This document shows, in pieces, positions 12,841 through 44,883 of a DNA stretch of 64,000 bases. This DNA comes from a virus, in the IMG/VR virus record IMGVR_UViG_3300046787_000675, positions 62,001 through 126,000 of that record. The stretch is one strand, 5' to 3'. The notes under the pieces were generated by a model that saw nothing but the letters and a program-made list of their open reading frames with translations, was not told where the DNA came from and made no database searches. A program made the translations under genes and the position numbers. Positions within the stretch are counted from its first letter, which is position 1. Each line of letters begins with the position of its first letter.

Positions 12841-13662
12841 TTATTTTACAGTAACAAGATCTTCTGTTTTACATGAAGAGTATTCATCTAGTTTAGTAGG
12901 GAGATCAACAAACTTTAAAACACAAGTATCCTGAGGTTTGGTTTTTTCTGCTTTTACAACAGTCTCTGTTATAAAACTTACTTCCCATCCTTTTGTTCCT
13001 AGAATCGCGGTAAGAACAGATGCATAGAAAGCATATTGGACCTTCAATGTCTCCAGATATTCTTCTGATGTCGCTTTTAAAGAAACATAGATACTTAATT
13101 TATCGTCTTTCACATAATGGTGAATACAATCTACGATCATAGCTATAACACACGATTTTACTTCTGCAATATTAACTGTGTGTATAGTTACACCGTTACC
13201 CTCTTTTAATGCAGGCAAAGAATTAATTAGATTCTGTAACTGGTCGATGTTGTCTGCGGGTTCCCAGAGCTCTGTTTTATTATCTTTTGTACCTACGTCC
13301 GTTACATACGAATAACTACTCCAGGCTCGAATATTTTTACCGTAGTAGGATCCAATATTATCTGTTTGTTGTAATATCATGAGCTGTTCCGGATATAGTT
13401 TTTCACCTTTAACGTAAGCAGCTAAAGATGCCTCGTATTGGCTTTGTGTAGGGAGTTTATCTTCACTGTTTCCTAATACACGTAATAAACGCACGACTAG
13501 TTCGTGACCTAGAGATACAAAGCCTTTAGCTCCGTTTCTATATAATTCAGATAATTTTGTAGATCCATTGATATTCCACAACATTTCCCCTACTGCATCT
13601 ATGGCTGTCTGTTTAGACAGAGCTACACTCAATAAGCCATTTGTTGAATTTATTTTAATCAT
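12841..13662 (-). CDS. Hypothetical protein (273 aa)
   Basis: The start overlaps the previous gene by 4 bases and is preceded by AAAAGGA, so translation is coupled. The protein is acidic to neutral, with a mix of helices and strands, and has several Cys residues in the last third but no paired motif. I recognise no family. Confidence 0.65.
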   Translation of the reverse strand: MIKINSTNGLLSVALSKQTAIDAVGEMLWNINGSTKLSELYRNGAKGFVSLGHELVVRLLRVLGNSEDKLPTQSQYEASLAAYVKGEKLYPEQLMILQQTDNIGSYYGKNIRAWSSYSYVTDVGTKDNKTELWEPADNIDQLQNLINSLPALKEGNGVTIHTVNIAEVKSCVIAMIVDCIHHYVKDDKLSIYVSLKATSEEYLETLKVQYAFYASVLTAILGTKGWEVSFITETVVKAEKTKPQDTCVLKFVDLPTKLDEYSSCKTEDLVTVK

Positions 13663-15751: not shown

Positions 15752-15916
15752 TTACCTGCAGCGCCTCTTACAAGTTGAAGACGACATCTGCGAAGCCGAT
15801 TTTATATTATCTATAACAAGTGCATTAGATTTACATCTAGTGCACTTGGTAGGTGTTTTATTTACATACTCATAATTTTTACATTTAGAGCATGTATATC
15901 TATAAAGTGCACTCAT
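15752..15916 (-). CDS. Small zinc-ribbon protein (54 aa)
   Basis: The frame from ATG 15916 to TAA 15752 encodes two CxxC knuckles, YTCSKCKNY and TKCTRCKSN, separated by 12 residues, a compact zinc ribbon of the rubredoxin or ribosomal type. A tail with CKRRC follows. AGGAAG lies 7 bases before the ATG. The first 17 bases overlap the end of the initiator-like gene in another frame, suggesting coupled translation. It could bind DNA or RNA beside the initiator, but this is inference. Confidence 0.6.
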   Translation of the reverse strand: MSALYRYTCSKCKNYEYVNKTPTKCTRCKSNALVIDNIKSASQMSSSTCKRRCR

Positions 15917-17195
15917 TTGAAAACTTCCTGCATAAGTATTCTAATCCTTTAGCTTTTATCGTATGTTTATCCTGCCAGAAATCATCATTCTCCACTACAT
16001 TTGCAATATAACGAACTAAGTCAGGCATAGGTGCAGAACTGCGTGTTAAATATTTATCTAGCAAAGAACAAATATATGCTTCCGGTTTTTTAATGGAAGA
16101 CGGCATTATTATCTTTTTACCGGTATATGTCTCCATATACCATATAAAGACATCAGACCGCGTTGTATACTTAGATAAAGCATTGACATCCTTTACAGTG
16201 TTAAGATATCGATTGGCGAGATAAGAATACGAAAGTTTGGTGTCTTTATTTCTGTCTAGGAAATTCTGTATAACTAAAGCAAAGATCTTATGTGCATTCT
16301 GCTCAATTAATTCACTGGAATTACCAAACTCTGAATATATAACCTGGGAAAGGTAATTATCTGTACTGTTTACCAGATATTCAAGAAGAGTATTATAGAT
16401 TTTTCCATCTACCGATATTTCTACAGGAGTCGAAATCATTTCCCTAGCAATTTGACTTAATTTTTCTCGTTGCGAGGATGTGTTAACATCTATAAAAAAT
16501 TTAGGTCTTGGAATCGTTTTCGATTCTACTCTTTTTTCTTTTTTAAGAATAATAGACTCTTTTTTAATTTTACTTGTAGCAGTTTTCTTGTTGCTATCGC
16601 AACAGATAGTAGTTACAGGTTCTTGTTCGGTACAGTTATTACGTGCATTTACAGGTGAATCTACTGTAACTGGATACTCTATATGTAATCCCTGCGGTAG
16701 GGTCTCTACAAAGGGTTTACTATATAGAGTAAGAGTGCGGACATTTTTGTCCTCACTAGATAGGACATTTGTGTCCTCACTAGATAGGACATTTTTGTCC
16801 GCAGTAAATTTTTTTTCTAAATTATTATCAACTAGTGCATTAGATAAATTATTTAAATAAGGTAACATGAACTTATAACAATGAAAAATATAACTGTTTG
16901 TCAGTCCTGCATACCCTTTTCTTCTCTGTCGATTGATTAGTTTTTTGGTACATAATTCCTGCACACATCTTCGTACAGTCCGCTGTGTTTTGTTTGTCAG
17001 TATACTTAATTTATTTATCGACGGGTAGCAGTTACCCAACGAGTCTATATTTTTCTGCAAGGCAGAGTAAACAAGTATTGTCGTCGACGATAATTTTAAT
17101 TCCGGATGCAGTAACCATTCAGGAAATTTATATTCTCGGAATTCTTTAGAGGGGTTTATATCGCCAGTGTATTCTTTTTTATCTGTGATATTCAT
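15900..17195 (-). CDS. Helix-turn-helix replication initiator-like protein (431 aa)
   Basis: Residues about 25-100 form a winged helix-turn-helix of the HTH_36 type (FPEWLLHPELKLSSTTILVYSAL, then NKLSILTNKTQRTVRRCVQEL, then a K-L-I-x-R-x-R wing). This domain is found at the N-terminus of many phage and plasmid replication initiators. A low-complexity middle contains the repeated peptide DxNVLSSE encoded by 24-base repeats. The C-terminal half is a helical domain of unknown family. The gene lies beside a RuvC-like gene at the end of the replication module. Similar placing of repeats inside an initiator gene (as in lambda O) suggests an origin. Confidence 0.6.
   Translation of the reverse strand: MNITDKKEYTGDINPSKEFREYKFPEWLLHPELKLSSTTILVYSALQKNIDSLGNCYPSINKLSILTNKTQRTVRRCVQELCTKKLINRQRRKGYAGLTNSYIFHCYKFMLPYLNNLSNALVDNNLEKKFTADKNVLSSEDTNVLSSEDKNVRTLTLYSKPFVETLPQGLHIEYPVTVDSPVNARNNCTEQEPVTTICCDSNKKTATSKIKKESIILKKEKRVESKTIPRPKFFIDVNTSSQREKLSQIAREMISTPVEISVDGKIYNTLLEYLVNSTDNYLSQVIYSEFGNSSELIEQNAHKIFALVIQNFLDRNKDTKLSYSYLANRYLNTVKDVNALSKYTTRSDVFIWYMETYTGKKIIMPSSIKKPEAYICSLLDKYLTRSSAPMPDLVRYIANVVENDDFWQDKHTIKAKGLEYLCRKFSNECTL
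16739..16800. repeat. Three 24-base iteron-like palindromes
   Basis: Three copies of GGACA-N4-TGTCC begin at 16739, 16763 and 16787, exactly 24 bases apart, separated by TCACTAGATA in both gaps. They lie in the low-complexity middle of the initiator-like gene. The arrangement fits binding sites for a dimeric protein, possibly the product of the surrounding gene, and so a candidate replication origin. Confidence 0.7.
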
Positions 17196-17201
17196 ATTTA
17201 C

Positions 17202-17813
17202 CTATTGCTTATTCAATTTCGATTCCAGGTAACTGTTTTTTGAACCTTTACCTAAAATTCGTTCTTGTTTTTTTATCTTTTCCTGTTTTCTATTTTCTCG
17301 TCTCTCTTTAAATAGATCAGACGCTGTATAGAAAGGATCCCATAGATATGTTTCTAGGCAGTTATTTTCGTATGCTTTATATGCCGCTAATAACGTTCCT
17401 AAAGCCTGCCAGCAATGTGTTGTTATACCTTTTAACTCAATACTATCTTTGCCGTATATTTTTATTACAGCTTGACGTATTGCAGCGTCATTGCCGGCAC
17501 CGCTATTAAGTAATAATTTTCTAACATTTAAACGCGATATACCTATAGGTGCTTTACCGACATTCTCAATAGATGACCAGAACCTGCCCACCCAAAAAGT
17601 AGTATCCAGCACCTCTTGTCCTACAGATCCATATGCCACTATAGATTCAAATACGACTGTAGAAGCATTGTTGTCTTTTAATACGGTCAACATCTCATCG
17701 TTTTTAATTTGCGTTGACCATAATACTTTTGGAGGGTTATACGCTGTATCTACACAAACTGCTGCACTTTTAAAACAGCCGGCATCCACACCTATAAGTA
17801 TCGCGTTTTTCAT
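17202..17813 (-). CDS. RuvC-like Holliday junction resolvase
   Basis: The protein (203 aa) shows the RuvC/RNase H-fold layout: strand with D10 in LIGVDAG, then E56 in VVFESI, and GAGNDAAIRQAV (N108-D109) further on. A Lys/Arg-rich tail follows (ERRENRKQEKIKK). It should cut four-way junctions or branched DNA in recombination and packaging. Length and fold order match phage RuvC-like resolvases. Exact assignment of the last acidic residues needs alignment. Confidence 0.6.
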   Translation of the reverse strand: MKNAILIGVDAGCFKSAAVCVDTAYNPPKVLWSTQIKNDEMLTVLKDNNASTVVFESIVAYGSVGQEVLDTTFWVGRFWSSIENVGKAPIGISRLNVRKLLLNSGAGNDAAIRQAVIKIYGKDSIELKGITTHCWQALGTLLAAYKAYENNCLETYLWDPFYTASDLFKERRENRKQEKIKKQERILGKGSKNSYLESKLNKQ

Positions 17814-19682: not shown

Positions 19683-20613
19683 AAGTATCCTTATATCTAC
19701 CTGCCTTCATACAGAAGAAGCAGACTTTTTTATTATCTTCCCGGAATAAACCAGTATGTCCATGTACACAATTTTCTGTTAAGTTAAATGTCTTATCTAT
19801 GCGAGATAAAGCACAGTAGTCTCTTCCGATAGGACAGGCTGTGCATTTTTTATTTTTAAAAGGAGGGTAGATCCCAGAGCATCCTTTTAATCTTTCTTTA
19901 TTTACTGTTTTGTTGCGTTCTTTCTGGGAATTAGATGTATGAATATCTTCCATGTTGATACCATTAAAGGAAGGCTGCAGAATGGCTGTAAAACACATTC
20001 CTCCTAGATCTTCATCTTCATATTCTTCGTATCTAGGTATCCCTATATCGCGGAGAATGTGTTGAATATATGCTCCGCTTCTTACCATGGTAAATACCAT
20101 TCCAGCCGAAGGCCCGGCTAAAGACAGTAAAGAAAGTAAATGCTTTCTACCTTCCACAGGAAGACGGAGACACTCCTTAACATATAATGGTGCCCAGAGA
20201 TTTGTTTTTCTATCCCATACAATACAGTTTTTAGAATTTATCTCGTGAATATTGCCCGAAATCTTGTATGCCACTTCTTTTATTATGTCAGAGGTATAAC
20301 GCTCAGAAGTATAAGAAGATAAAATACCTATTACAGTTTCCTCTTGATACTTCTTTACGTCATTTATTTCGTCCTCGGCATCTTCATAACGCTCATCCTC
20401 TTCCGTAAAAGGGTTATTAAGCTTATTAGATTTTCTAAGTATAGTGTCGCATATAAATTTAGCAATCTCAAGTAGTGTTTTTCCTACTACATAATCATCC
20501 TGTACACAAAAGACATTTTTAAATACATTTTCAACATCCACCCTTTTTTGTTTTAACTGGTTAATGTTATATTCTGGGTGCTTATTTATATCGAAATGTA
20601 TGTTATTCTTCAT
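19630..20613 (-). CDS. Cysteine-cluster hypothetical protein (327 aa)
   Basis: The C-terminal 90 residues carry many cysteines (GCSGIYPP, KKCTACPIGRDYC, ENCVHGH, KVCFFCMKAG), the kind of spacing seen in zinc or iron-sulfur domains. The N-terminal part is acidic and helical (DEEDERYEDAEDEIND). The start follows AAGG and overlaps the ParB/DUF1016-like gene. It overlaps the downstream gene by 53 bases, which is long for this genome. Function is unknown; a DNA metabolism role is inferred only from context. Confidence 0.65.
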   Translation of the reverse strand: MKNNIHFDINKHPEYNINQLKQKRVDVENVFKNVFCVQDDYVVGKTLLEIAKFICDTILRKSNKLNNPFTEEDERYEDAEDEINDVKKYQEETVIGILSSYTSERYTSDIIKEVAYKISGNIHEINSKNCIVWDRKTNLWAPLYVKECLRLPVEGRKHLLSLLSLAGPSAGMVFTMVRSGAYIQHILRDIGIPRYEEYEDEDLGGMCFTAILQPSFNGINMEDIHTSNSQKERNKTVNKERLKGCSGIYPPFKNKKCTACPIGRDYCALSRIDKTFNLTENCVHGHTGLFREDNKKVCFFCMKAGRYKDTYEKRNNRDARPSQDESF

Positions 20614-21433
20614 ACCTTATACGATCTACTAATTTTTTGTATTGGGTATACATCAAATTTTCTATCCCTTTAATATCTGTACTGTTCTTCAAGGCATCTA
20701 GACTTGATATAAGCCTATCTGCATTTTCAGCTATTTCTTTGACAGATATACACAAGGTATTGAATTGATCGTCGTTTACAACCTTTTCATCGCTGGATAA
20801 ACCTACCATAGTATTTATATGTTTAGCCAACTCTATCAGTTCTTTATTGATTGTATTTAACTGGTTGTTGGTACTTTCAATTTTTTTCTCTGCCTCATTT
20901 ATTTTTGTAGATAGCAGAGCGAAGAACCCTACAGGGTGTTTCGGGGTTATACGTGCGGGTTGTTCATTTAAAGGTTCCTGTTTTCTAACAGGTGTAGATG
21001 TTACCTTTTTCACCAGGTTCTCTGTTTCCCGGACAGACATCTTTTTATCCAACACCTCTTCGATAACTTTTATCCTTTGTTCGTCATTGGATATTTTATT
21101 TATCGAGCGAATCTGACTCCATTCAATACCTTTAGAGATGTACTCCAGCATTGCGTCATGATCTGGGCACCGGGTATAGGCTCTGTGTGCTTCCTCGACC
21201 ATTCTCTTAGATATTTTTTGTCCGGCATTAGTTAGTGCTTCCGCCACTCTATCTGTTATAGCTGTACCGTAGACACCTTCTCTTTTCTGCATCTCACCTA
21301 CGATTCTGCCTATTTGCCAATACCCGTATGCAGCCTGGTACCGAATCATTGTATGGATGTCGCATATTAGTTTTGATGCGTCCTCGAAATTATTCGGGAT
21401 CTTTACATCCTTTAAATTGATTAAATCATTCAC
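20603..21433 (-). CDS. ParB/DUF1016-like DNA-binding protein (276 aa)
   Basis: Residues about 25-95 (AAYGYWQIGRIVGEMQKREG, ISKRMVEEAHRAY) resemble the N-terminal domain of DUF1016/YhcG proteins. The following segment ends in KKMSVRETENLVKK (about 131-144), a motif very like the LSVRETE-LVK end of ParB helix-turn-helix domains. The C-terminal half is a long coiled coil. It could be a DNA-binding partition-like or scaffold protein. No nuclease or CTPase motif is visible. The identification is tentative. Confidence 0.45.
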   Translation of the reverse strand: MNDLINLKDVKIPNNFEDASKLICDIHTMIRYQAAYGYWQIGRIVGEMQKREGVYGTAITDRVAEALTNAGQKISKRMVEEAHRAYTRCPDHDAMLEYISKGIEWSQIRSINKISNDEQRIKVIEEVLDKKMSVRETENLVKKVTSTPVRKQEPLNEQPARITPKHPVGFFALLSTKINEAEKKIESTNNQLNTINKELIELAKHINTMVGLSSDEKVVNDDQFNTLCISVKEIAENADRLISSLDALKNSTDIKGIENLMYTQYKKLVDRIRYEE

Positions 21434-23386: not shown

Positions 23387-25072
23387 TTAGTCCTCGTTAT
23401 CTATTTCACCTGCCATCATACTTGCCGCTAAATCCTCATCGAAAAACTCATCGGAGTCTTCTTCTGGAATAGACATAGGAAGCGGTGGAGGCGGAGGTGT
23501 TTGTGCTTTGCTTCTAGTTGCTGTTACCGGCGGAGGTGTTGCTTGTCCTGCTTTAGGTGCCACGGGTAAACTTGGGAGGTTAGGTAATCCAGGCAAACTT
23601 GCCGGCGCTGCTTTATTAACAGGTGCTGCCGTAGTCTGCTGTGTTTTAGGTAACGCAGGCAAACTCGCAGGTGCAGCTGCTTTAGGGGCAGGTGTTGCAG
23701 TAGTCTGCTGTGTTTTAGGTAGTCCCGGTAATCCTGGAAGTTGCGGAGGTAAAGCCGGACCTCTTTGTACCGCAGCGTTTGGATCTGTATAGGTTGGAGG
23801 AGGCATAGTAGAGGTTTGTGTCGTATTATGTCCCGGCACCTGTTGGTTGTTTCTTTGTAAAGGGTGTACACCTTTCGCAACCATATCCTTTGCCCCATAT
23901 ACAGGATCGGAAATATTTTCGGATGTCCCTATTACAGGAGTGTCTCCGTTTAAATATTCCAGATAAGGAGAATACTGTTTTACATTACGCAACGCAAAAT
24001 CAACAGCTTCCGGCGAGTACACTTTTACAAGTGTTTCCAGTACATCTTCAATAGCAGCAGGCAATAATATTTCATCCCACGTTCTATACACTTGTTTAAG
24101 ATAATCCAATGAGATTGGACAGGCTAAACCGGAATCCTCTAAAGTATATTCGACTTTAGTTGATCCTTGTGCAGCGTTTATCTGTGTATATGCAGTAAGA
24201 ACTACAAGGTTACCGCCTAAACCGATATTACCGAATTTATTGTTCTCGAACGTGGCAATACCTTCTTCATCCATACTGATCATTTGTGCCGGTCTAAGGA
24301 GATTACGTAAGAATGCTGTTACTGCATTTCTAGGAATTATAAGAACGCCTAGTTCCGGAGTATCCAGCTTTACACCGTTCTCCTGATACACTATACATCT
24401 TACCATTACTTCCCTGATACCGGGACCAGATAAAGATATAGGTCGACCATCGGCGCTAATAAAATCATTACCAAGAGGTGATTTATTAGAACAACTGCAA
24501 CTGGCGCAATCCATATTTAACCATTTAAGCCATTTAGCAGGAACGTCAGGTTGTACCTTTACATTCAGTAATTCTTTTGCTTCGAGTAATTTTATATAGA
24601 TATTACGAACAACACGTTGTAGTGGTGACATGTAGTAACTGACAGCTCTACCTTGTCTATCTAACCACCCCAGTTTTGCTCCTTTACTCGGGTCTGCCTC
24701 GTCCTGTAACTCGCCGGCTTCGCTATACCCGTATGTTCCACCGAGGATAGATGCATTAGTCGTACCGCAGCCCTTTAATACATCCGCGGATACTAACCAA
24801 TCCCCCATTTTATCTTGCGGGGATGTCTCATCCGGATACATAACCATGTCTTCTAATGCCACACCATCCTCTGCTATGGAAGGAAGTATCTTGATTAGAG
24901 TTTTATTATATACCGGTGCTTCCGGTTTACTCTTATCTTTATTTTTAGTTACTTTTGAACTAACCAGTCTGTACCCGCATCCGGGTTTTAATACATAGTC
25001 AGTAATAGGCATTAAACTACCTTCTTCCCATGTTTTTGCAGCTTGCTGCTGCGGTCTCGGTCTTCTATACAT
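23387..25072 (-). CDS. Candidate single-strand DNA-binding protein, Pro/Ala-rich
   Basis: This 561-residue protein lies between DNA polymerase and the recombinase, the usual place for a gp32-type protein, and ends in a very acidic tail (DSDEFFDEDL ... GEIDNED) like the protein-recruiting tails of SSBs. The N-terminal 400 residues are a mixed globular domain with a CASCSC cluster that could bind zinc. From about 420 to 535 it is a Pro/Ala/Gln-rich disordered linker built of near repeats (LPKTQQTTA, KAAPASLP). The role as SSB is inferred from context and tail, not from a recognised fold. Confidence 0.4.
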   Translation of the reverse strand: MYRRPRPQQQAAKTWEEGSLMPITDYVLKPGCGYRLVSSKVTKNKDKSKPEAPVYNKTLIKILPSIAEDGVALEDMVMYPDETSPQDKMGDWLVSADVLKGCGTTNASILGGTYGYSEAGELQDEADPSKGAKLGWLDRQGRAVSYYMSPLQRVVRNIYIKLLEAKELLNVKVQPDVPAKWLKWLNMDCASCSCSNKSPLGNDFISADGRPISLSGPGIREVMVRCIVYQENGVKLDTPELGVLIIPRNAVTAFLRNLLRPAQMISMDEEGIATFENNKFGNIGLGGNLVVLTAYTQINAAQGSTKVEYTLEDSGLACPISLDYLKQVYRTWDEILLPAAIEDVLETLVKVYSPEAVDFALRNVKQYSPYLEYLNGDTPVIGTSENISDPVYGAKDMVAKGVHPLQRNNQQVPGHNTTQTSTMPPPTYTDPNAAVQRGPALPPQLPGLPGLPKTQQTTATPAPKAAAPASLPALPKTQQTTAAPVNKAAPASLPGLPNLPSLPVAPKAGQATPPPVTATRSKAQTPPPPPLPMSIPEEDSDEFFDEDLAASMMAGEIDNED

Positions 25073-38339: not shown

Positions 38340-41300
38340 CTAAAAATATTTAATAATCAAATCGGACAAATATTGATCTCTCTCGCTATTTGTCAGAACA
38401 CGATTAAATAAAAGTATTTCTGCATAGTCGTATTGTCCGAAGTTAACCCCTATCGGGTCATCGTCCCGGACTAACGCACCGAATGTCAGGGTATCGTGGT
38501 CTACGGCATGGTCGGCTATATCTGTGTATTGTACCGTTTCGCTATTTATACGGAACGAAAGTAAATTACCGTTTAACTTTACATTGAATATATGAAGATT
38601 GTCCCCTACATCTGATGTATCGTTTATAACTTGCGGGATAAATGCCGCTGAGCGAATACTTGCAACGGAACCATTACTTAGATCTGTGTCTCTTGTACTT
38701 ATATATGAGTAAGAGTTGTTATTAGTATATTCCAACCAGTTCATAGCCGGAGTAAACGGCAAGGTACTACTATTTCTAATTACGAGAATAGCCTCCCATG
38801 TATTTCCGTCAAATACTGGAGCAGCACCATTTGCCTGGAAGTATTCGTTTAGACCATAACATCTAAGGGTATCATTCCCATTATACACTGCTGGTATTTG
38901 ATCAGGTCCTCCTACCGTCGTTACTACGTGTCCATTAGGAGATATATCGGTAAAACCGCTATTTCCTTCTATATGTAATGCAAGGGCATTTGGAGAAGAG
39001 ATAAATAAGTCATCAACATCAATTTCACTACCGGTAGTAGAGATGCTCCCAAAAGACGTCCCATCAGATGCGTTTAATGAAATATCAAGAAGTGTATCGT
39101 CGTTAGCTGTCATTTCCAATATCATAACAGCACCGCTTAATATAGCCGGAGACATAACAAATATATCTTTCGGTAGATTCTGATTGTATAATGTTTTTAT
39201 TTCCAGAGAAGTTAATCGTCTGGTGAACATAGATACAAAACACATGCTACCTACAAAATAATCGTCCATGGTTACAGGATTATAACCTATACACAAATCT
39301 GCGGTAGATATTATCGGGGCGGTTATAGTTCCTGTTTCAGTCTGTGTTACAGGTACTTCTATTCCGTCTATGTATATCTTAAAGACGTTGAAAGCATTCC
39401 AATCAACCGCAATACAATGCCATACATTATCGTTAAAGGTATCGTCTGTTGAGTATTCCTTTATTTCAGTATCAGCATCTTGACTTACTCTTGCGTATAT
39501 CTTTCCAAGAGCCATATAAATACTGTAATTATCTACTCCTGCTCCGGACGACATTTTGTTTATCAACTGCATTGTAGCGCTCGATACTGTTTTAATCCAC
39601 ATAACATGGGTTCTGTTACCGTCGCGAATATCAAGTAATACTGTGCTTGGAACAGTTACATAATTATCTACACCGTCAAATAGGAATGTCCCGAACTTTA
39701 AAGTCGACTCAACATTTATAAATGAACCTGTAATAGTTGGTACATTGATAAGTGTCGGGTTATGTTCGTAACCAGAATAATCTTCAAACTCCCTACCTAC
39801 AGCAATACCTGAATTAAGAGGTAGTGCAAGAACATAGTTGTTTCTAAAAGACGTATTATATCGCCATGGCTGTTTTGCTACAGTAGAATTATACAGTGTA
39901 GTTACATTACTTGGAGACAGCGCTGAATTAAATATCATAACTTCTGTCATGGATCCTTCCCATAATCCAGTACCAACATCCATAGCACCTACTAAGACAT
40001 TTGCTGTAGTGTTATGGATATCAGATGTATAAGGTACACTATCTTCTTCTATAGCGTCAACATATAATTTTACATCAGCCCCATCATATGTTCCTACTAA
40101 ATGATACCACGTATTTATTGTCGGTGTAATAGATGATACTGCTTCGGCATCTGCTGTACCTAAACCGTCACTAAATACTCTAAATACAAATGCACCGGCA
40201 ACATGCGCTAAATACCAACCGCGTTGATCACTTGAAGGTAGATGCTTCGAAATAGCATACATTGAACTTAATGTATCTAAATATACCCAACAAGAAACGG
40301 TTATATTATCTGTTATCTGTAAAGGAGTAGGGTTACCCACATCCAGATACTGGTCTACTCCATCTAGATAAAGGGTATTTACAAGTTCCTCTTCCGGAGT
40401 TACAGATTCACTTATACTACTGCCTCCGTCGCTACCTCCTGGCGGTCCTTCAGTAGATTCCCCACTACTACTACCACTACCGCCGCCTCCGCCGCCTCCT
40501 CCGCCGCCTCCATCGGAGGAAGAAGGAGGATCAGGCTCACAAGTAGCACAATCAGGATGGGTATCAGGTCCTTTCAAAATAAATGTAGTTTGTTCGCACG
40601 TAGCTGCGTCACACCAAGCTTGTTCTGTATTATTTGCAGCAGGTCGCTGATAACATCCGCCGTTTTGAAATAATACTGGTCCTGGGTTATAATTCCAGGA
40701 TTTTACAATATATGCCGGCCCAGCTCCTTGTTTACCTGCACAAGCCTGCCATTTAACGTTATAATTCTGTATAGCACGCGCACAATCGCATACAGTAGCG
40801 TGGGCCACTGCTGCGCCGCCTATATTCGGGGGATCTACTGTCCCTTCTAGTAACTCAAAACAGTTACCTAGATATGATATTATTGTTGGTTTACCTAATG
40901 CTGCCCAGTTAGCAAACGTCAGAATGAGGTCAGGTTCGCAATTTTTATATTCTTTAAACTTTATGTTTTTCTCTAGACATAAATCACAAGGTGCTAGAGG
41001 ATCTATATTATCGATACCTCCAAGGTCAATAGTAACATCACTGTAGACATGTGTTTCATCTTCTAGTGTATATTCTACAAAAACATAACAATTACCATTT
41101 ACCCCTTTAAAACTTTGATTTACATTAAGAAATACTGTATTTGGATCGAATATGTATATATCTAAAGGATTTTCGCAGTTATGCCATTTTTGGTTTTTAC
41201 CTATTGTGTCGTCGCACTCAGCACAATTTTCAAAAGAATCAGCAGTAATAACAGTTGGGGGATCGTTTGTTAATTCCTCAGTCCTATAGTAACAAACACC

Positions 41301-41345
41301 TTCTACTTTTATAACATTTCCTAAATTAGGCGCATTTATAGACAT
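38340..41345 (-). CDS. Large LamG-domain tail fibre or adhesin (1001 aa)
   Basis: The N-terminal 275 residues contain cysteine-rich modules of the kind seen in neighbouring genes (G-x-CY, then C-x-x-C). A Gly/Ser-rich hinge with a run of eleven glycines follows. Then come two laminin-G/concanavalin-like domains (about 325-490 with LDGVDQYLDVG and WYHLVGTYDG; about 545-705 with FDGVDNYVTVP and WHCIAVDW) and a third, more divergent lectin-like domain ending at the C-terminus. Such domains bind sugars, so this is a strong receptor-binding or host-adhesion candidate. A clear AAGGA precedes the start. It is the last large gene of the fibre cluster. Confidence 0.78.
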   Translation of the reverse strand: MSINAPNLGNVIKVEGVCYYRTEELTNDPPTVITADSFENCAECDDTIGKNQKWHNCENPLDIYIFDPNTVFLNVNQSFKGVNGNCYVFVEYTLEDETHVYSDVTIDLGGIDNIDPLAPCDLCLEKNIKFKEYKNCEPDLILTFANWAALGKPTIISYLGNCFELLEGTVDPPNIGGAAVAHATVCDCARAIQNYNVKWQACAGKQGAGPAYIVKSWNYNPGPVLFQNGGCYQRPAANNTEQAWCDAATCEQTTFILKGPDTHPDCATCEPDPPSSSDGGGGGGGGGGGSGSSSGESTEGPPGGSDGGSSISESVTPEEELVNTLYLDGVDQYLDVGNPTPLQITDNITVSCWVYLDTLSSMYAISKHLPSSDQRGWYLAHVAGAFVFRVFSDGLGTADAEAVSSITPTINTWYHLVGTYDGADVKLYVDAIEEDSVPYTSDIHNTTANVLVGAMDVGTGLWEGSMTEVMIFNSALSPSNVTTLYNSTVAKQPWRYNTSFRNNYVLALPLNSGIAVGREFEDYSGYEHNPTLINVPTITGSFINVESTLKFGTFLFDGVDNYVTVPSTVLLDIRDGNRTHVMWIKTVSSATMQLINKMSSGAGVDNYSIYMALGKIYARVSQDADTEIKEYSTDDTFNDNVWHCIAVDWNAFNVFKIYIDGIEVPVTQTETGTITAPIISTADLCIGYNPVTMDDYFVGSMCFVSMFTRRLTSLEIKTLYNQNLPKDIFVMSPAILSGAVMILEMTANDDTLLDISLNASDGTSFGSISTTGSEIDVDDLFISSPNALALHIEGNSGFTDISPNGHVVTTVGGPDQIPAVYNGNDTLRCYGLNEYFQANGAAPVFDGNTWEAILVIRNSSTLPFTPAMNWLEYTNNNSYSYISTRDTDLSNGSVASIRSAAFIPQVINDTSDVGDNLHIFNVKLNGNLLSFRINSETVQYTDIADHAVDHDTLTFGALVRDDDPIGVNFGQYDYAEILLFNRVLTNSERDQYLSDLIIKYF

Positions 41346-43206: not shown

Positions 43207-44883
43207 TCAAAAATAACTGGTTCCTAATGGATCCCAGAGAACTTCAACACCAATAGTTACAGGTGTACATCCTGATGGTCCTGGTGAAGGATCCCCTAAA
43301 CTTATAGTACCACTATAAGAATCCCCTTCTCCGAATGGGAGGGATATAGCAGGAGAGGCGTAGGCTTGTTGTGTAAATTCTAGACCTAAAGCTGGATTGT
43401 TATAAATAAGGACGGTAAATGGAAATTGATATCCGGGATCCGGTGATATATCTCCGCCTCCAAAACCGCATGGGTTTGAATCCGTAGCGGTTATATTCCA
43501 TACCGCCCCGCCGTAAGATTCTCCTGAGTATGATTGTCGTCTGTGCCCATTAGCTATGTAATCAACACCGTTATATGTAACTTTAATATTCCATCTAGGG
43601 AATGGGTTTGTATCTGTGTCACAATCTGTACAGTTCAGATATCCTATCATAGTTTCTACCTGTTCTGGTGTTAATACAGGGTCACTTGTATATGTAAAAC
43701 CACCAAATTCATAACATACTCCATCATATTTCCATGCACCTACAGATCCCCAATCCTCATCATAAGAATCTAGGGTAGCATCTAAAGCTACGTATAGAGG
43801 TGTACCACCACCACAAGGGACAAAGTATTGTACTTCTGGAGGACATCCTTCTGAATAACAACTCCCAGACCCACTCATATCAATAGGTGTCCACGTTACC
43901 GCATCAGGAGTACCTCCATAAGTATAGACGCCTGTAGAAGTATAGCATTGCCCATCTATCATAATAATAAAGTATTCACCATTATATATTCGATAACAGT
44001 CTATACCTAGATCTGTAGAGAGTATATTGACAGTGGTAAGATAATCAGAGCAACTAGAAAATTGTATAGTACAAGCACAACTACAATCATCTATTGTATA
44101 AGGATCCGTAGTATCCACAGCCGTCATACTGTAATCGACGAATTCAAAACAAGTTCCGTAATATGTTATAGTAGCTGCTGGTGACGGTACTATAGGTACG
44201 AATATAGAGTAGATGTGATCACAATCAATGTACTCTAATGAATTACCTGCAGGAGTACTAGAAGAACTACTAGCGCAGCACTCTTCATAGTTGTAATATA
44301 TTTCAGAAGACGAGGAACTATCAGCGCAGCACTCTTCATAGTTGTAATATATTTCAGAAGACGAGGAACTATCTTGAGAAGATAATGATTGAGAACTGCA
44401 TTCAGAATAAACATAAATAGGTGTAGATGAGCTTGATGAACTATGCGAACTGTCTGAACTAGTAACGGATGAGCCATCTCCGCTACATTCAGAATAAACA
44501 TAAATAAGCTCTGATGATGAATAAGATGATGACTCTGAAGGCTGACTAGAAGGTGTATTACTGCTACCGCTACATTCAGAATAAACATATATCGGTTCTG
44601 AAGATGAAGAGGATGGGACAGTAGAAGACTGGCTAGACGGAGTACTGCTTCCTTCACTACATTCAGAATAAATATAGATAAGCTCAGACGACCCTGATCC
44701 AGAACTATCTTGGCTTGAGCTATATTGACTTGAACTATCCGAACTAGGATTATTGGATGTATCTGAGCTACTAGAGGCACATATTAATATTCCCGAACCA
44801 TCACATCTTAATTGACAACTGCCATCCTCGACAAGGATAGCAACATTCTCTATTGTTTTTCCTCCCGCACCTATAAATGCCAT
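43207..44883 (-). CDS. Ser/Cys-repeat virion protein (558 aa)
   Basis: The first 30 residues are a small domain. Residues about 35-215 are extremely Ser-rich and built of repeated units carrying IYVYSECS or EIYYNYEECC. The unit is 29 residues long in four copies, then 17 residues in two. The remaining 340 residues contain several cysteine-rich modules (CYEF, DDCSCAC, CGGGTPLYVALD, CTDCD) like those of neighbouring genes. The repeats may form a flexible, disulfide-linked stalk. A strong AAAGGAGAG precedes the ATG. Likely an exposed tail or fibre protein. Confidence 0.65.
   Translation of the reverse strand: MAFIGAGGKTIENVAILVEDGSCQLRCDGSGILICASSSSDTSNNPSSDSSSQYSSSQDSSGSGSSELIYIYSECSEGSSTPSSQSSTVPSSSSSEPIYVYSECSGSSNTPSSQPSESSSYSSSELIYVYSECSGDGSSVTSSDSSHSSSSSSTPIYVYSECSSQSLSSQDSSSSSEIYYNYEECCADSSSSSEIYYNYEECCASSSSSTPAGNSLEYIDCDHIYSIFVPIVPSPAATITYYGTCFEFVDYSMTAVDTTDPYTIDDCSCACTIQFSSCSDYLTTVNILSTDLGIDCYRIYNGEYFIIMIDGQCYTSTGVYTYGGTPDAVTWTPIDMSGSGSCYSEGCPPEVQYFVPCGGGTPLYVALDATLDSYDEDWGSVGAWKYDGVCYEFGGFTYTSDPVLTPEQVETMIGYLNCTDCDTDTNPFPRWNIKVTYNGVDYIANGHRRQSYSGESYGGAVWNITATDSNPCGFGGGDISPDPGYQFPFTVLIYNNPALGLEFTQQAYASPAISLPFGEGDSYSGTISLGDPSPGPSGCTPVTIGVEVLWDPLGTSYF
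44272..44373 (-). repeat. Two identical 51-base tandem repeats
   Basis: Two direct copies, 44272-44322 and 44323-44373, appear identical and encode a 17-residue unit containing EIYYNYEECC. They lie at the 3' end of the Ser/Cys-rich stretch of the 43207-44883 gene and adjoin the 87-base repeats. Confidence 0.8.
44399..44746 (-). repeat. 87-base periodic Ser/Cys coding repeats, four copies
   Basis: The plus-strand core CATTCAGAATAAA begins at 44399, 44486, 44573 and 44660, exactly 87 bases (29 codons) apart. Each unit encodes an IYVYSECS-type core followed by about 20 mostly Ser, Thr, Gln and Pro residues. The cores are conserved, while the Ser-rich spacers vary. The repeats are prone to recombination and copy-number change. 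Confidence 0.8.

Follow-up and report, generated by a model that had tools for sequence, protein, structure and literature searches.

The three GGACA-N4-TGTCC palindromes located within an O-like replication initiator gene of a 160-kb phage are very probably (at an estimated probability of about 0.93) iterons recognised by the protein that this gene encodes, since the same palindrome is found in the initiator genes of dozens of phages, where it is read in all three frames, and since the helix with which the protein is expected to read DNA allows its sequence to be predicted. The iterons and the adjoining A+T-rich segment likely make up the replication origin of the phage, embedded in the initiator gene, and replication would then start at the array. 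The analysed window is a stretch of 64,000 nucleotides corresponding to bases 62,001–126,000 of the IMG/VR virus record IMGVR_UViG_3300046787_000675, the full length of which is 160,705 bp.

The palindrome array and the initiator gene

The sequence scan confirmed the description in the first-pass annotation of three palindromes spaced exactly 24 bases apart and separated twice by the same spacer: perfect copies start at positions 16739, 16763 and 16787 (period 24 bp), each matching GGACANNNNTGTCC exactly, and the spacer TCACTAGATA occurs twice (Table 1). In the sense of the minus-strand gene, the repeat is ADKNVLSSEDTNVLSSEDKNVR, and the extended iteron sites are, in gene order, CGGACAAAAATGTCCT, AGGACACAAATGTCCT and AGGACAAAAATGTCCG. 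The entire 160,705-bp record contains no other exact copies of the palindrome; a scan for arrays of at least three X4-N6-X4' palindromes 14–48 bp apart returned this array as its single match in the record, and block-shuffled genomes contained no such arrays in 20 trials. The repeat units are 96% and 83% identical, and this near-identity indicates that the copies were generated by duplication; the third copy, the most diverged one (83% identity overall), has kept both palindrome arms and changed in the flank. The chance of finding three palindromes, given the peptide and the codon usage of the phage, was calculated as about 1e-8 with the copies taken as independent, a figure that overstates the case because tandem duplication makes them non-independent; among 20,000 synonymous redraws, none contained even two palindromes. 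All three copies lie in one reading frame, and the peptides that they encode are almost identical, so conservation of DNA and conservation of peptide are inseparable from the locus alone. The peptide DxNVLSSE, which had been assigned to the repeat, is encoded by the first two units, whereas the third unit ends in DKNVR. Terminator-like matches were also observed at the array (16739–16800, plus strand).

The gene itself had been described as carrying an initiator-type winged helix-turn-helix (HTH), and independent searches bear this out. The Pfam family HTH_36 (PF13730) matches residues 34–87 with 26.9 bits against a gathering cut-off of 25, the PHROGs annotated as "replication initiation protein" and "replication initiation O-like" match residues about 25–210, and AlphaFold2 modelling predicted the winged HTH confidently (pLDDT 84–98). 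The palindromes lie just downstream of this domain within the gene, and the segment encoded by the repeats (residues 132–153) is predicted, with low confidence, to have no regular structure. A Foldseek search with the winged HTH revealed, as best matches, the N-terminal domains of RepA_N plasmid initiators and of DnaD; the best PDB matches were 4pql, 4pt7 and 5kbj, which we take to be RepA_N proteins, with a Rep–DNA complex among them. The E-values of these matches were 1e-3 or worse, which points to resemblance of fold and leaves family membership unproven. The RepA_N domain (PF06970) was absent from the Pfam matches of the protein at E ≤ 0.01, the resemblance thus being in fold alone; DnaD_N scored below its Pfam cut-off (17.8 bits against 27), the domain of the present protein resembling 2v79 in fold, and a PDB sequence search revealed generic HTH proteins only. 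No sequence relatives of the C-terminal region were found, and neither tblastn in phages nor a pattern scan revealed close relatives of the whole protein.

Table 1. Features of the initiator locus; positions are those of the window.
Feature	Position	Strand	Basis
O-like replication initiator gene, 431 aa (P0001)	15900..17195	-	Pfam HTH_36, PHROGs, AlphaFold2
Helical C-terminal region, residues 239–427; presumed partner-recruiting domain	15915..16481	-	AlphaFold2 helices, low to medium confidence
Second A+T-rich segment, purine/pyrimidine strand asymmetry, other side of array	16520..16579	.	98.9th percentile; putative function
Putative iteron 3 (gene order), GGACAAAAATGTCC	16739..16752	.	Exact palindrome match
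Putative iteron 2, GGACACAAATGTCC	16763..16776	.	Exact palindrome match
Putative iteron 1 (gene order), GGACAAAAATGTCC	16787..16800	.	Exact palindrome match
85% A+T segment adjoining iterons, candidate DNA-unwinding element	16805..16864	.	Composition; putative function
Winged helix-turn-helix DNA-binding domain, residues about 22–110	16866..17132	-	HTH_36, AlphaFold2, Foldseek
Recognition helix, residues 71–83, QRTVRRCVQELCT; R72, R75, R76	16947..16985	-	AlphaFold2 helix; covariation in relatives
RuvC-like Holliday junction resolvase, next gene upstream in operon	17202..17813	-	phrog_1770, E 2e-10

The 60-bp segment that adjoins the array is the A+T maximum of the gene and lies at the 99.96th percentile of the record. 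This flank is 5' of the array, and the 3' side is of ordinary composition until the second A+T-rich region (16520–16599) is reached; in relatives, most arrays are likewise adjoined by an A+T-rich segment (median 92nd percentile), which, however, lies 3' of them. This reversal is the main anatomical oddity of the locus and counts against an origin, as does the number of iterons, three being at the low end. The GC skew is monotonic over the whole record and marks no origin at the array, and no other array in the 160,705 bp suggests a second origin. The 60 bp located 3' of the relatives' arrays (L006–L125) often contain short periodic motifs, such as AATAATACAAG, AACTAGAACCA and AGATATTACA, which perhaps represent a conserved element for unwinding or for single-strand loading.

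The gene beside the initiator encodes the RuvC-like resolvase and not a recognisable helicase loader, and several nearby ORFs have no family match. The neighbourhood encodes an A-family DNA polymerase (PolA), a DnaG-like primase, a DnaB-like helicase and other helicases, and the presence of a baseplate wedge protein indicates a contractile tail. Other observations in the window include a protein with DUF1016_N and a ParB-type HTH (20603–21433) encoded close to the replication genes, a weak thymidylate synthase-like match (12841–13662, phrog_160), a 69-bp tandem repeat (23580–23721) within a 561-aa ORF without a Pfam match (23387–25072), 51-bp and 87-bp tandem repeats (44264–44685) within a 558-aa ORF (43207–44883) and a 1001-aa protein of the structural region (38340–41345) with a match to a TafC-like fimbrial domain below the curated cut-off.

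The palindrome in other phages

A scan of 2.9 million viral contigs for palindrome pairs 18–48 bp apart, which used the DNA pattern only and no protein information, revealed such pairs in at least 120 contigs. Among the matches listed, the palindromes lie inside a winged-HTH ORF in 84 contigs, 84 of the 88 winged-HTH ORFs in these loci (detected with a model built in the present analysis) carry the palindrome, and its density in such ORFs is about 39-fold that found elsewhere in the loci. In these genes, the palindrome occurs in three frames, giving DKNV-, RTKMS- and GQKCP-like peptides, e.g., RTKMSEKSGQKCPKKTDKNV in L007; the 75 non-redundant arrays among the matches listed show phases of 125/59/24, and 49 of them use more than one frame. 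The occurrence of the same palindrome in all three frames with differing peptides indicates selection on DNA and not on the peptide. The spacings, again among the matches listed, fall into the classes of 20–25 (68), 31–34 (20) and 42–47 bp (19), with the intermediate classes of 26–30 (2) and 35–41 bp (4) almost empty, and are evenly spread modulo 3 (46/39/33), which points to phasing with the helical turns of DNA rather than with codons. This is the opposite of a peptide kept without its DNA palindromes, the pattern that the first-pass annotation had named as contrary to its proposal: the palindrome is kept, and the frame and the peptide change.

In contigs of bacterial genomes with the same pattern, 6 of 118 loci have it in winged-HTH initiator genes, and the remaining spacings are unphased. 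The GGACAN4TGTCC pairs outside winged-HTH genes (112 of the 118 loci, L216–L333, no helical phasing) are frequent in assemblies of Verrucomicrobia, Planctomycetes, Acidobacteria and Fimbriimonadales, and apparently represent an unrelated repeat family.

A further sample, for which the palindrome was not a criterion, was obtained by scanning for similarity to the winged-HTH protein and comprised 66 distinct initiators; GGACAN4TGTCC with at most one mismatch occurs in it at 0.37 per kb inside the initiator gene vs. 0.012 per kb outside, a 30-fold difference. Most of the relatives selected by homology have, at this place, palindromes that share the geometry but differ in sequence, and 35 non-redundant linkers contain 37 repeated palindromes, where synonymous recoding predicts 2. 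Twenty diverse winged-HTH domains, when aligned together, proved too variable for scanning, and therefore subfamily alignments were used. The distant matches Pavtok, SfV and Bacillus phage EZ-2018a contain no array of the 5-N6-5 geometry, which is thus not universal in the superfamily.

Recognition helix and iteron half-site

In the relatives, residues 72, 75 and 76 of the recognition helix track the half-site of the iterons. The homology sample includes the helix/half-site pairs ERTIRRW–CGGAC, KETISRR–TTGAC, KVTISRR–TTAAC, QKTVSRW–GTGAC, RTISAR–TAGAA, DRSIRSW–CGGAA and KTSISTW–TTAAA. The simplest rule suggested by these sequences is that the fifth base of the half-site is C when the residue aligned with R76 is Arg, and A when it is any other. 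The rule was drawn from one scan, fixed and then tested in three later scans with other seeds. The test sets, restricted to less than 85% domain similarity, comprise 40 cases of Arg with C, 3 of Arg without C, 1 of another residue with C and 22 of another residue without C (Fisher 2.7e-13, a value that overstates the significance because related sequences are statistically non-independent). The A5 subfamily separates completely (C or not C: 23/0 with Arg vs. 0/9 with other residues); the A4 test set and the training set come from one broad family, and the A6 scan is non-discriminating for the rule, nearly all its members having Arg or Lys at position 76. Lys76 is ambiguous, its behaviour differing between subfamilies.

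The helix of the window protein reads R72-T-V-R75-R76, and the half-site of this class, GGAC, is the one observed in the array. The half-sites are xGGAC in all 16 relatives that have R75-R76, a comparison that is not fully blind, some of these relatives coming from seeds first found via the GGAC palindrome (A5, A6), and L135, L148 and L206 coming from the A2 scan, part of the seeds of which had likewise been derived from the palindrome. Covariation of helix and half-site offers the best indirect evidence that the protein binds these sites. It is fairly likely that the three helix residues constitute a readable code for the iteron half-sites, which the HTH_36 initiators of very diverse phages carry in any frame of the linker of their own gene; GGAC-N6-GTCC would then be one recurrent word of this code, and the present 160-kb phage, which has its own replisome, would use it. 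The code seems to be unreported, and a full-text search of the open-access literature found no paper on the palindrome or on a helix-to-iteron code. The origins of most sequenced phages are unmapped. If the code is true, origins and their sequence specificity could be deduced from the protein sequence alone, and, if binding agrees, sequence data could serve to predict the origins of many phages and phage-derived plasmids as well as their incompatibility groups.

Proposed mechanism, alternatives and known systems

The first-pass annotation had proposed a candidate origin with iterons bound by the initiator, and this is still the best reading in view of the specificity for the gene and the half-site that follows the recognition helix. 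A symmetric dimer of the N-terminal winged HTH would bind each 16-bp palindrome, R72, R75 and R76 reading the GGAC half-sites, as the covariation suggests; the spacing of two helical turns would allow the dimers to stack on one face of the DNA in an O-some-like complex. The A+T-rich stretch at 16805–16864 may then melt, and the C-terminal region may recruit the DnaB-like helicase and primase of the phage; the peptide encoded by the repeats would be a tolerated, unstructured linker.

The covariation implies site-specific binding by the winged HTH just as well if the array is an operator, at which the protein binds its own gene for autoregulation or an elongation block and not primarily as an origin, and iteron proteins often autoregulate. 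The array, however, lies about 400 bp into the gene, far from the start codon, in a region with no promoter signal above chance, an A+T-rich segment adjoins it, the protein families concerned are annotated as replication initiators, and such sites serve as origins in the lambda, SPP1 and pSK41 precedents; a primary role as an operator is therefore unlikely. The array strand does fold into an extended hairpin (z = -7.5 in single-strand folding), as an element acting in RNA or single-stranded DNA, i.e., in mRNA regulation or as a single-strand origin, would require instead of double-stranded protein sites, but any tandem array of palindromes folds in this way, Rfam has no match for the array, and neither helical phasing nor covariation of half-site and recognition helix is expected of an RNA element, which makes a hairpin function very unlikely.

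The one frame and nearly identical peptide of the three copies would also suit a conserved DKNV-type linker motif that binds a partner, with the palindromes as a by-product; this is hardly credible, given that relatives carry the same DNA in all three frames at spacings that are not a multiple of three, that repeated palindromes greatly exceed the synonymous expectation (37 vs. 2) and that the linker is predicted to lack regular structure. Chance or a recent tandem duplication without function, for which the three near-identical units might speak, is negligible as an explanation, the array being unique in 160 kb and absent from the shuffles, and the exact motif recurring in initiator genes of unrelated phages. 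These last three explanations (hairpin, peptide and chance) were set aside on the basis of frames and spacing, the synonymous test, the shuffles, Rfam and folding.

The reading of the palindromes as iterons of an origin inside the initiator gene had been supported in the first-pass annotation by lambda O and by several lactococcal phages. The lambda comparison holds; the lactococcal parallel was not confirmed for TP901-1, whose rep gene showed no convincing iterons with the 5-N6-5 palindrome caller, and lambda O, SPP1 gp38/oriL and the RepA_N plasmids are better precedents. Lambda O shares with the present protein the N-terminal DNA-binding domain, and ori-lambda has four palindromic iterons in the middle of the gene with an A+T-rich segment alongside; its iterons are 20, 24 and 23 bp apart and therefore lie in different reading frames. 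Unlike here, the lambda iterons have another sequence and arm spacing (ATCCCTCAAAACGAGGGA type), and the different arm spacing explains the weak score of lambda with the 5-N6-5 caller; the A+T-rich side is reversed in the present phage, and O adjoins the helicase loader P and relies on host enzymes, while this phage has PolA, primase and a DnaB-like helicase of its own.

SPP1 gp38 binds direct repeats inside gene 38 (oriL), where an AT-rich unwinding element is present (PMC6316719), so that the placement of the initiator's repeats within its own gene together with such an element is shared; SPP1 differs in having oriR about 13 kb away, while a second array was not found here, and in its loader gp39. 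In RepA_N plasmids, the origin is located centrally within rep, and the linker that it encodes can be dispensed with; in pPR9, an HTH_36 domain with its origin replaced the RepA_N module, the rep region replicating autonomously (PMC5703833, which also describes the structures 4pql, 4pt7 and 5kbj). The RepA_N plasmids (pSK41) and pPR9/pUSA03 thus resemble the present locus in the winged-HTH fold, which is the best PDB match, and in the central origin; they differ in the repeat sequence, in the RepA_N Pfam domain, undetected here, and in being plasmids and not phages. In the rep gene of pUSA03, an HTH-type chimera and sister of pPR9, a 23-bp repeat, TGTCAAAAGGACACGTCTAGAAA, located at the corresponding place, is read in three frames (L568:431–740).

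The likeness extends further in Staphylococcus phage 77 and Lactobacillus phage c5, which have HTH_36, the 5-N6-5 geometry, mostly 22–24 bp spacing and the array just after the winged HTH, but differ in the half-sites (TTGAC and TTAAC vs. GGAC), consistent with E72/V72 and S75 in their recognition helices; the c5 helix, with V72, S75 and R76, is paired with TTAAC, as the rule expects. Dozens of unrelated phages have their initiator gene marked by a DNA pattern that was spotted by eye. An origin within the initiator gene is a known design, represented by lambda O, SPP1 gp38 and the RepA_N plasmids, to which this locus adds a further case, one that would place an origin of the lambda/SPP1 style in a large contractile-tailed phage with its own polymerase, primase and helicase.
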